Below are positions 2,148-5,571 of a DNA stretch of 22,645 nucleotides, piece after piece. A program made the position numbers and the translations under genes. Numbering within the stretch: the first letter of the stretch is position 1; every line of letters begins with the position of its first letter. This DNA is from a virus. The notes below the pieces were generated by a model. The model saw nothing but the letters and a program-made list of their open reading frames with translations. It made no database searches and had not been told where the DNA came from. The stretch spans positions 1-22,645 of the IMG/VR virus record IMGVR_UViG_3300024255_003004; one strand, given 5' to 3'.

Positions 2148-3014
2148 ATGTTTGAACTACAAAAAGAACACCTGGCACAATTAATTCCAGGGAACGATAA
2201 CGTTGACGGATGGCATGAAGCTCTTGTAGCAATTATGCCTAAGTATGGTATTAACACAGTAAGACGTGCCGCACACTTTATTAGTCAGTGCGCACATGAA
2301 TCTAACAACTTCCGTAGTTTACAAGAAAATTTAAACTATAGTGAAAAAGCACTTAACGCAGTCTTTGGCAGATACTTTGGTCCAGCACCAAAACGTAATG
2401 CGGCAGAATATGCACGTAACCCAGAGATGATTGCTAACTATGTTTATCAAGACGAGTTTCGTAAATATAAAATGGGCAACGTTAACGAAGGTGACGGTTG
2501 GTTATTTAGAGGACGTGGACTAAAGCAATTAACAGGACGTGAAAACTATACACGTTTTGGCGCAACAGTAGACATGACAGCAGAACAAGCGGCTGAATAT
2601 GTTGCTACTGAAAAGGGTGCTGTTGAATCAGCATGTTGGTTCTGGGACGCAAATAATTTAAATTCTATTGCAGACACAGATGACGTTGTAAAAATGACTA
2701 AGAAAATTAACGGTGGTAACATCGGACTTGAGTCACGTCAGAAGCGTTATACAAAAGCAATGGAAGTATTTGGTAGCCCAGTAACACTTGCAGACGATGC
2801 AGGTGATGATGATTTTGATATCGATGATATTGGAGTACTACGCAAAGGTTGCAGAGGCGAAGGTGTACAAATGATGCAAGAAGCATTAGGCATTGGCGCA
2901 GATGGAATTTTTGGTCCAGGTACAGAACGCAAATTAAAAGAGTGGCAAGCAAGTAAAGGCTTAACAGCAGACGGAATAGCCGGACCTGCTACACTCGGAG
3001 AGTTACTAGGCTAA
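2148..3014 (+). CDS. endolysin: GH19 glycoside hydrolase with peptidoglycan-binding domain
   Basis: This 288-residue protein is predicted to cut the peptidoglycan glycan strand during lysis. The N-terminal GH19 (chitinase-like) domain covers about residues 1-212. AHES (Glu51) fits the catalytic acid, and GDGWLFRGRGLKQLTGRENY (115-134) is a typical GH19 signature. An acidic linker (about 215-230, ADDAGDDDFDIDD) leads to a C-terminal PG_binding_1 domain (about 231-288) with the usual GADGIFGPGT and TADGIAGPAT repeats. There is no signal peptide, so it would need a holin to reach the wall. It is followed nine bases later by the spanin pair, which makes this a lysis cassette. Confidence 0.92.
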   Translation: MFELQKEHLAQLIPGNDNVDGWHEALVAIMPKYGINTVRRAAHFISQCAHESNNFRSLQENLNYSEKALNAVFGRYFGPAPKRNAAEYARNPEMIANYVYQDEFRKYKMGNVNEGDGWLFRGRGLKQLTGRENYTRFGATVDMTAEQAAEYVATEKGAVESACWFWDANNLNSIADTDDVVKMTKKINGGNIGLESRQKRYTKAMEVFGSPVTLADDAGDDDFDIDDIGVLRKGCRGEGVQMMQEALGIGADGIFGPGTERKLKEWQASKGLTADGIAGPATLGELLG

Positions 3015-3022
3015 TTACAATT

Positions 3023-3508
3023 ATGTTTAGTTCAATTAAAATTGCTATGATAGTCGTTGCCCTTGCTACAGCAGGCGGCGGCTTTCTACATTACAAAAAT
3101 GTTAAAGCAGACTTAGAAACAGCTAAAGCAAATAATATATTACTAGAGGCGTCCATTGATGGACAGAAGGCTGTAATTGCACAGCAGGCTAATGATTTTA
3201 AATCAATACTAGCCGCTAACGAAAAACTACAAGCACAAAACAAAGTTTTATCAAACGAGTTTAAAGCACTAGATGAACGCTTTAATAAAATCAACGGTCA
3301 AGGCGAAGTACGTGATATAGGTAAACTTGCTGTTGAGCGTAGTAGCTCAGTTGAACGTGTTATTAATGGTGCTACCAAAAAAGCAATGAGATGTGTAGAA
3401 ATTGCAATGGGTGCGCCGCTAACGGAGAAAGAGATTAATGCAACTAAGAAATCACAGATCAATTCTGAGTGTCCTAGCATTGCTAACCCTAACTACATTC
3501 CTTACTAG
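3023..3508 (+). CDS. i-spanin (Rz-like inner membrane spanin subunit)
   Basis: The 161-residue protein has one N-terminal membrane segment (about residues 4-22) followed by a long Gln/Lys/Glu/Ala-rich region (about 28-95) predicted to be coiled coil, then a periplasmic tail ending in NPNYIPY. This is the architecture of an i-spanin, which joins an outer-membrane lipoprotein to fuse the inner and outer membranes at the last step of lysis. The identification rests on architecture and context: it lies directly after the endolysin, and a lipoprotein gene starts inside its 3' end in the +1 frame. Spanins diverge too far for residue motifs to help. Confidence 0.82.
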   Translation: MFSSIKIAMIVVALATAGGGFLHYKNVKADLETAKANNILLEASIDGQKAVIAQQANDFKSILAANEKLQAQNKVLSNEFKALDERFNKINGQGEVRDIGKLAVERSSSVERVINGATKKAMRCVEIAMGAPLTEKEINATKKSQINSECPSIANPNYIPY

Positions 3509-3830
3509 TTGTAGTACGGTACAAAAGTTAGATGTGTTTGCTACTGAAGTAGAAAGAGCACCTTTAAATCTACCCAATCCTGACACACCTAAACTAGAAG
3601 AACTTAGATGGACTATCATTACTAGCGAAAACGCACAAGAAGTATTTGCTAAAATGCAAGAGCAAGGTAAAGACCCTGTACTGTTTGGTTTAAGTGATGA
3701 TGACTATGAGTTGTTATCTAAGAACTTTGCACAGATACGTGCTTACATGATACAACAAGGTTTAACACTTGAACAGTATCGTGAATATTATGAACCAAAA
3801 GAAGAAACAGGAAAGGAAAATGCCAATTAA
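3438..3830 (+). CDS. o-spanin-like outer membrane lipoprotein
   Basis: The 130-residue protein starts with a charged N-region (MQLRNHR), a hydrophobic stretch and a lipobox LTSC (22-25), so Cys25 would be lipidated and the mature protein would have about 106 residues. The mature part begins with a Pro-rich stretch (LNLPNPDTPK), as is common in o-spanins. The ATG has a GGAG about ten bases upstream. The first 71 bases overlap the i-spanin in another frame, and the signal peptide is encoded by the i-spanin's C-terminal codons. This overlapping layout is typical of Rz/Rz1 pairs, although the mature part is longer than Rz1 of lambda. Confidence 0.82.
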   Translation: MQLRNHRSILSVLALLTLTTFLTSCSTVQKLDVFATEVERAPLNLPNPDTPKLEELRWTIITSENAQEVFAKMQEQGKDPVLFGLSDDDYELLSKNFAQIRAYMIQQGLTLEQYREYYEPKEETGKENAN

Positions 3831-4002
3831 ATTTAGGCCTAGCCAGAAGGTAAGAGATAAAAACTCTGGCAAATACATTACAACACACTTTTATATTAAA
3901 AGTACACCAACAACTGAGTTACAAGAATTTTTAGAAAATCATAACTCACGTCCCAAGCACAAAGTTAAAGTAAAGAAAGAATTAACACGTAGAGGCTTAT
4001 AA
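3820..4002 (+). CDS. small basic protein, unidentified
   Basis: The likely start is the ATG at 3820, preceded by AGGAAA, giving 60 residues that begin MPIKFRPSQKVRDKNSGKYI. The same frame is open back to 3769, but that ATG has no ribosome site and would add codons wholly inside the o-spanin gene. The protein is strongly basic (many Lys and Arg) with no membrane segment, and ends KKELTRRGL. The motif pattern resembles a short protein that I believe recurs in marine T4-like phages, but no function is known to me. It overlaps the o-spanin stop by a few bases and ends at the ATG of the next gene. Confidence 0.75.
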   Translation: MPIKFRPSQKVRDKNSGKYITTHFYIKSTPTTELQEFLENHNSRPKHKVKVKKELTRRGL

Positions 4003-4483: not shown

Positions 4484-4618
4484 ATGACACAGATGATTTT
4501 AAAATTAAAACAAGACGAGCGAGTTTGCAAATTCTGCAACATTGTAGAAGGCTTGTTATTAGTTTCATTTCCGATTGCCTTACCATTTTTTATAATGGTT
4601 GCATCAACAAGATACTAA
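4484..4618 (+). CDS. 44-residue membrane protein with CxxC
   Basis: The ATG at 4484, with AGAGAAAA upstream, opens a 44-residue frame. The N-terminus is charged (MTQMILKLKQDERVCKFC) and contains a CxxC pair (Cys15 and Cys18), followed by one hydrophobic segment (about 22-41, VEGLLLVSFPIALPFFIMVA) and a short tail. Cytoplasmic zinc or redox chemistry at the CxxC is possible but untested. The TAA stop overlaps the next ATG (TAATG at 4616-4620), which supports both frames as genes. Confidence 0.55.
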   Translation: MTQMILKLKQDERVCKFCNIVEGLLLVSFPIALPFFIMVASTRY

Positions 4619-4785
4619 TGAGAGACGCAACACCCCAAGAAGTAAAAGAATGGCACGAAACTGACTACTGGATGAAAATGGACTTTGATCCATTAGTAAT
4701 GTTTGTAGTCATACCGACTATTATACAACTTATGGCCATGGGCCTAATGTTTGGTGTAATGGCCGTAAACAATGGCATTTTTTAA
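4618..4785 (+). CDS. 55-residue membrane protein
   Basis: The frame is open from 4525 but the sensible start is the ATG at 4618, which overlaps the previous stop codon (TAATG). The product has 55 residues: a charged N-terminus (MRDATPQEVKEWHETDYWMK) and one Met-rich hydrophobic segment (about 26-50) before a short tail NNGIF. It has an unusual density of Met in and around the membrane segment. No family is recognised. It overlaps the next gene by 14 bases. Confidence 0.6.
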   Translation: MRDATPQEVKEWHETDYWMKMDFDPLVMFVVIPTIIQLMAMGLMFGVMAVNNGIF

Positions 4786-4963: not shown

Positions 4964-5245
4964 ATGTGGGAAATGATTGAACAAATGGCGAGCAATCGCT
5001 TATGGATTTATACAGCATTAGCTGGATCAGTATTTGGCGCTGGATTTTTATTCTGGTTTAAAGATACAAGAATGGCAACATGGGCAGTACAAAAGTTTGA
5101 TGCTACATTAGAATACCTAGCAGTACGTTGGGGCTGGACATGGTTACAAGATGATCCAGATGCTTGGCGTGTAAAATATCCAAAAATAACATCTAAAATA
5201 GATGAGCTTGAAAAACGTATTAAACATCTTGAGGGGAAAAGATAA
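4964..5245 (+). CDS. 93-residue membrane protein, possible lysis component
   Basis: The protein has one clear membrane segment (about residues 13-32, LWIYTALAGSVFGAGFLFWF), a Trp-rich middle (GWTWLQDDPDAW) and a C-terminal coiled-coil-like helix (SKIDELEKRIKHLEGKR). The ATG follows an AGAGGG ribosome site and an exact late box. Its stop overlaps the start of the EF-hand protein (TAATG), so the two are likely co-translated and may form a complex. A holin or antiholin role is possible from late expression and context, but a single membrane segment plus coiled coil is not decisive. Confidence 0.7.
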   Translation: MWEMIEQMASNRLWIYTALAGSVFGAGFLFWFKDTRMATWAVQKFDATLEYLAVRWGWTWLQDDPDAWRVKYPKITSKIDELEKRIKHLEGKR

Positions 5246-5571
5246 TGAGCGAAGAAGAAATTAAAAAGTCAGGGCACCATCCAGCAGATACAAACGGAGA
5301 CGGAAAAGTTTCTGATGAAGAACACCAAATGTATATGGAGTTCAAACGTAAAGAACTAGAAGACAGAGATGCTATGCGTGATGCACAGCGTCAAATGGCT
5401 TGGTTTGCATTGTTTGGTATGTTACTATATCCATTCGCAGTTGTGGTTGCAGTGTTTGCAGGCATTGACGAAGCGGCTAAGATTTTGGGCTCAATGGCAC
5501 CAACATACTTTGTATCAGTTGCGGCGATTGTAGCGGCATTCTATGCCAAAGAAGCAGTAGCTAAAAAGTAA
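5245..5571 (+). CDS. EF-hand membrane protein, holin candidate
   Basis: The 108-residue protein starts with a hydrophilic domain that contains a complete EF-hand calcium loop, DTNGDGKVSDEE (15-26; ligands D15, N17, D19, S23, E26). A charged helix follows (about 27-48), then two hydrophobic segments (about 49-71 and 82-101) joined by a short loop, and a basic tail (KEAVAKK). Two membrane helices with a charged N-terminus and basic tail fit class II holin architecture, and the gene is late-expressed beside the lysis cassette. The combination with an EF-hand is unusual. The holin role is inference. Confidence 0.75.
   Translation: MSEEEIKKSGHHPADTNGDGKVSDEEHQMYMEFKRKELEDRDAMRDAQRQMAWFALFGMLLYPFAVVVAVFAGIDEAAKILGSMAPTYFVSVAAIVAAFYAKEAVAKK

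Follow-up and report, generated by a model that had tools for sequence, protein, structure and literature searches.

A widespread phage protein family with a calcium-type loop ahead of two membrane helices is a candidate for a holin-type lysis protein

Class II holins, whose prototype is S21 of phage 21, have two transmembrane (TM) helices, a charge bias that places both termini inside the cell (N-in/C-in), a basic C-terminal tail, and endolysin and spanin genes as neighbors. The phage protein described here is predicted to be alike in these respects but differs in having an N-terminal region of ~50 residues, predicted to be cytoplasmic, that carries a cation-binding loop, a region that to our knowledge class II holins lack, and in having no detected match to a holin family. 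The GTA_holin_3TM (PF11351) and phrog_2524 proteins are likewise small membrane proteins encoded directly upstream of the endolysin in roseophages, but theirs is a separate gene that can adjoin the calcium-loop gene in one and the same cassette, as in phage CRP-810. XhlA (PF10779) and the holin XhlB are paired small membrane proteins encoded beside an endolysin; the products of three gene clusters discussed below (c0, c3, and c43) are loosely XhlA-like in role, although just one c43 member, from locus L007, matched the XhlA model, weakly and below the cut-off, over its membrane segment. Among known phage lysis proteins, the endolysin LysGH15 has an EF-type Ca2+ loop, but there the EF-hand-like Ca2+ binding and dependence reside in the CHAP enzyme domain and not in a membrane protein (PMC4022735). 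No EF-hand holin was found in the open literature searched, in agreement with the original prediction, whose author knew of no characterized holin of this kind.

The gene lies in a viral record of 22.6 kb, the whole of which was analyzed (here, the window) and which appears from our reading of its genes (PhoH, a B-family polymerase, and others) to be T4-like. Its start codon overlaps the gene before it by one base, the last of that gene's stop codon, and the encoded protein consists of a short acidic N terminus, the loop, a charged helix, and then two hydrophobic segments (Table 1). The endolysin, Rz, and Rz1 genes are found ~1.4 to 3 kb upstream on the same strand. The original prediction placed the gene next to these lysis genes, which is accurate for strand and vicinity, but small open reading frames (ORFs) intervene in the window. 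Several of these, between positions 4002 and 4933, encode single-helix proteins and are not present in the relatives inspected; one small ORF (4484 to 4621) has a zinc-ribbon-like match. In the related loci L027 and L007, no small ORFs separate the spanin genes from the calcium-loop gene. The c43 protein encoded directly upstream is a candidate partner of the calcium-loop protein or a candidate rival for the role of holin. In one locus, a 252-residue protein that reads as lipase-like is inserted between the two genes (L020, 5243 to 6001). Downstream of the calcium-loop gene are a gene for DnaJ, identified by Pfam, and genes whose translations read as a peptide deformylase and a ClpA-like ATPase.

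Table 1. Lysis-related genes of the window and predicted features of the calcium-loop protein
Feature	Coordinates	Strand	Evidence or remark
Endolysin, GH19-type with peptidoglycan-binding domain	2148..3014	+	phrog_181, E 2.4e-71; PG_binding_1, E 1.8e-11
Inner-membrane spanin, Rz-like	3023..3508	+	phrog_739, E 3.3e-8
Rz1-like outer-membrane spanin (lipoprotein), in a different frame from Rz, which it overlaps	3438..3830	+	phrog_812, E 5e-9; lipobox LTSCS
Probable membrane protein, 93 aa, cluster c43, directly upstream	4964..5245	+	conserved in 13 related loci
Membrane protein of 108 aa with calcium loop and two helices, putative holin-type lysis protein	5245..5571	+	ATG start
EF-hand-type loop DTNGDGKVSDEE, residues 15-26	5287..5322	+	pattern unique in window; ligand positions kept in relatives
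Predicted TM1, residues 54-72	5404..5460	+	hydropathy; AlphaFold2 model helix 24-71, continuous with loop exit helix
Predicted TM2, residues 80-98	5482..5538	+	hydropathy; AlphaFold2 model helix 75-107

A strict loop pattern, D.[DN].[DN]G.[ILV][DST]..E, matched once across the six frames of the window, at the loop given in Table 1, and such a loop arose in 2 of 400,000 trials with shuffled versions of the 108-residue protein. Pattern scan and hydropathy together confirm that an EF loop precedes two membrane helices. The loop has the 12 residues of a canonical EF loop, with ligands at positions 1, 3, 5, 9, and 12 and glycine at position 6. An EF-hand in the helix-loop-helix sense, with both helices and a Pfam gathering score, was not found: the Pfam EF-hand models matched the protein below their cut-offs (EF-hand_5 at an E value of 0.0044, with 16.9 bits where the cut-off is 25.9), and in the AlphaFold2 model only an exit helix flanks the loop, a helix at residues 3 to 8 being of low confidence. 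In the family members from CRP-345, CRP-810, and CRP-1, the N terminus begins only a few residues ahead of the loop (MVEDYDLNGNG in CRP-345). The EF-hand of the original prediction thus holds for the canonical 12-residue loop but not for the entering helix or the Pfam score, and the protein is better described, as modeled, as a canonical loop plus exit helix without an entering helix, in which the calcium-type loop caps a stalk. Two family members (L080, 5857 to 6312, and one in L086) have an additional Pro/Ala-rich N-terminal extension of ~40 residues ahead of the loop.

Homologs lacking the EF-hand ligands would have counted against the original prediction, but the ligands are kept. The strict pattern is present in 142 of 145 distinct relatives, the three exceptions being one masked residue and two proteins with Glu at position 9, and in 57 of the 58 distinct proteins of the CRP-1-like clade, where the exception is a protein cut by a contig end. 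In an alignment of 61 diverse relatives with identities as low as 29%, the residues D15, G20, E26, D46, and P63 are invariant, while the other ligand positions are N or D at residue 17, D or N at residue 19, and mostly S, T, or D at residue 23. Loop position 1 is encoded by GAT or GAC and position 12 by GAA or GAG, each in 144/144 sequences, and the nonligand loop positions 2, 4, 7, 10, and 11 differ in amino acid among relatives. Since ligand codons vary synonymously while the amino acids are confined to D/N, S/T/D, and E, we take cation binding by the loop to be under selection. Searches with the membrane part only recovered the same isolates and no convincing loop-less relatives among isolated phages; search bias in the conservation of the loop appears limited, although some may remain.

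Two helices were predicted by hydropathy in 142 of 145 proteins. The 15 residues ahead of TM1 contain on average 2.3 lysines and arginines, compared with 0.8 in the segment separating the helices and 2.2 following TM2, a distribution that predicts an N-in/C-in layout with the loop on the cytoplasmic side. The AlphaFold2 model of the window protein (mean pLDDT 79.5, pTM 0.49) reaches a pLDDT of 83 to 92 across most of the hairpin. Hydropathy, charge counts, and model all predict the two-helix, N-in/C-in arrangement of class II holins.

Searches with tblastn found relatives in complete genomes of isolated phages, namely, the Melnitz methylophages (76%), pelagiphage HTVC008M (63%), roseophages CRP-207, CRP-345, CRP-810, CRP-1, and CRP-9, and Limnohabitans phage DC31, and the protein is annotated as hypothetical in every one of them. 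The hypothetical protein MelnitzEXVC044M_108 of Melnitz corresponds in position to the family member of a near-identical sister genome. Four scans of IMG/VR, which may overlap, yielded no fewer than 574, 48, 325, and 193 related stretches; up to 80 from each scan were retained. Three contigs with relatives were found in bacterial genomes, and no match was found in plasmids. No match to a named holin family was found in Pfam, PHROGs, or NCBIfam, which returned only the subthreshold EF-hand hits and scattered weak matches. Foldseek searches against PDB and BFVD returned chance helical bundles, with the exception of a single viral protein (54% identity) that carries no name. The nearest family description is PHROG 27150, which carries no function and matches the CRP-1 member (E value of 9e-12) and 15 of 61 relatives but the window protein at just 0.18. 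The calcium-loop proteins are a large unnamed phage family that this PHROG partly covers.

The genomic neighborhoods of the family point repeatedly to lysis. In the DC31-like clade, a lysis gene lies within six genes in 80 of 81 loci, typically in the order calcium-loop gene, Rz, and M15 endolysin (Rz-like gene at +1 and M15 at +2 in ~62). In CRP-1 and CRP-9, the calcium-loop gene is followed by an M15 endolysin gene and a u-spanin-like gene, the ORFs overlapping or abutting; the u-spanin-like product reads as a lipoprotein with a C-terminal membrane segment. In the CRP-1 clade, M15 follows immediately in 45 of 82 loci, and among the annotated genes of CRP-1 that were scanned the calcium-loop protein is the sole small endolysin-adjacent protein with the two-helix layout of the family. 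Window-like phages have the order GH19- or GH24-type endolysin, Rz, Rz1, (c43), calcium-loop gene, and DnaJ. L027 (GH19) and L026 (GH24) show this arrangement up to the calcium-loop gene without c43, which leaves the calcium-loop protein as the only nonspanin membrane protein seen in the cassette, and in L066 the Rz-Rz1-calcium-loop order recurs in a differing genome context. The setting among lysis genes that is typical of class II holins was thus found, though not in a tail-operon lineage and not in further loci from the clade to which the window belongs; in that clade, a lysis gene was near only 16 of 86 loci by an automatic count that left out GH24-type lysozymes. These clade counts indicate that association with lysis genes is pronounced in certain lineages and lacking in others.

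Because a GTA-type holin occurs in some cassettes and a conserved tail-anchored protein is encoded upstream in many, the main rival is that the calcium-loop protein is an antiholin or accessory lysis regulator that pairs with the GTA-type holin, c43, or c0 and sets its partner's timing, the loop sensing the cation shift at membrane failure and freeing the partner. In the CRP-345/810-like clade, where 45 of 50 loci have a lysis gene no more than six genes away, a GTA-type holin-like gene lies directly downstream in 23, and in CRP-810 the calcium-loop gene, GTA-type holin gene, and GH108 endolysin gene are consecutive. In most of 75 loci, a conserved single-helix tail-anchored protein, c0 (phrog_32327), is encoded at a distance of one or two genes on the upstream side, and it is also found upstream in 50 CRP-1-clade loci. 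Such an arrangement is what a regulator with a partner would have, but no recognized other holin adjoins the gene in L027 or L026, nor, c0 aside, in the CRP-1 cassette, and we regard the regulator role as somewhat unlikely. The membrane proteins c0, c3, and c43 encoded upstream are alternative holin candidates in their loci. Examples of c0, a possible partner of the calcium-loop protein, are found in L220 (3260 to 3721) and L005 (4514 to 4999). The product of CRP-207 gp73 (L003, 3292 to 3873), annotated as a putative lysozyme, reads as a membrane-anchored coiled-coil protein.

In ~25 loci in all, among them those of HTVC008M and Melnitz, the calcium-loop gene instead lies in a tail operon, where it adjoins gp51 and a tape-measure-like gene. 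In both of these named phages it is away from annotated endolysin genes. These neighbors would fit a virion, ejection, or assembly factor that is encoded near lysis genes by chance in some phages. However, the family also occurs in the 55-kb roseophages CRP-1, CRP-9, CRP-207, and CRP-345 and in DC31, which have other genome plans, mostly near endolysin or spanin genes, and we consider a tail function improbable. The T4 holin gene t itself sits beside tail-fiber genes, so that a position in the tail operon is compatible with a holin. In a further ~23 loci, the calcium-loop gene is beside a DUF1353 gene upstream of a terminase-like gene. Melnitz also encodes an 87-residue two-helix protein near a GH108 hydrolase and, at 24173 to 24908 (L221, MZ577097.1), an unannotated overlapping Rz/Rz1 pair (phrog_739, E value of 5e-17; phrog_812, E value of 5e-15), which precedes the gene for a DUF1353 protein whose N terminus bears a membrane segment.

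Because the gene recurs in the holin slot of several different cassettes, some of which show no other obvious holin, and because its product has a two-helix layout, we slightly favor the reading that the protein is an inner-membrane lysis protein, most likely the holin or a member of a holin pair, whose Ca2+-binding loop is cytoplasmic. This assignment is inferred from neighborhood and topology. The holin of the original prediction is partly supported, by the lysis context and the predicted N-in/C-in hairpin, while the tail-operon lineage and the missing named-family match speak against it. As a holin, the protein would have its cation-binding loop in the cytoplasm capping a long helix that runs straight into TM1, followed by a short turn, TM2, and a C-terminal tail that is basic. 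Like class II holins, the protein would collect in the inner membrane and oligomerize at lysis time, letting the endolysin out or depolarizing the membrane, after which the spanins would complete lysis. Cation binding would order or dock the N-terminal stalk.

What the loop would contribute to such a holin depends on its ion and on when it is filled. Glu at position 12 is the bidentate Ca2+ ligand of known EF loops, while Mg2+-tuned EF sites often carry Asp there; from the conserved Glu, the bound ion is most likely Ca2+ over Mg2+. It is quite possible, if somewhat short of an even chance, that the loop is purely structural, with constitutive Mg2+ or Ca2+ binding that caps the stalk helix of an ordinary holin and signals nothing. 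This concerns the role of the loop only and thus overlaps with the holin reading. The loop is invariant in marine phages and one freshwater phage and occupies a helix N-cap position in the AlphaFold2 model, both of which suit a structural role, while the strictness of Glu at position 12 (144/144) argues against it. Free cytosolic Ca2+ is low and lone EF loops bind weakly, so the loop should fill mainly after the membrane leaks, and calcium could then sharpen or lock in the opening and not start it. Since calcium enters only after the membrane is breached and the loop is predicted to lie inside the cell, the first-trigger role allowed for in the original prediction is unlikely; an amplifier of the leak is possible. 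In its strongest form, in which a widespread holin family has a loop that is empty in the intact cell and filled at the first leak, making calcium a positive-feedback, all-or-none lysis switch, we think the idea unlikely to be correct. The original prediction also appealed to the calcium level of seawater, an idea that we set aside: the freshwater phage DC31 retains the loop, so high seawater calcium is not needed.

The family bears on phages with no recognized holin. The Melnitz genome record has no gene named holin, and the description of Melnitz mentions none, proposing instead that the curli pore CsgG may serve as a pinholin-like pore (PMC9004378). For phages like Melnitz, the calcium-loop family offers a concrete holin candidate, one that they share with roseophages and freshwater phages. 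Should the loop gate lysis, this would be a novel means by which a phage coordinates failure of the membrane with the host's transmembrane ion gradient.
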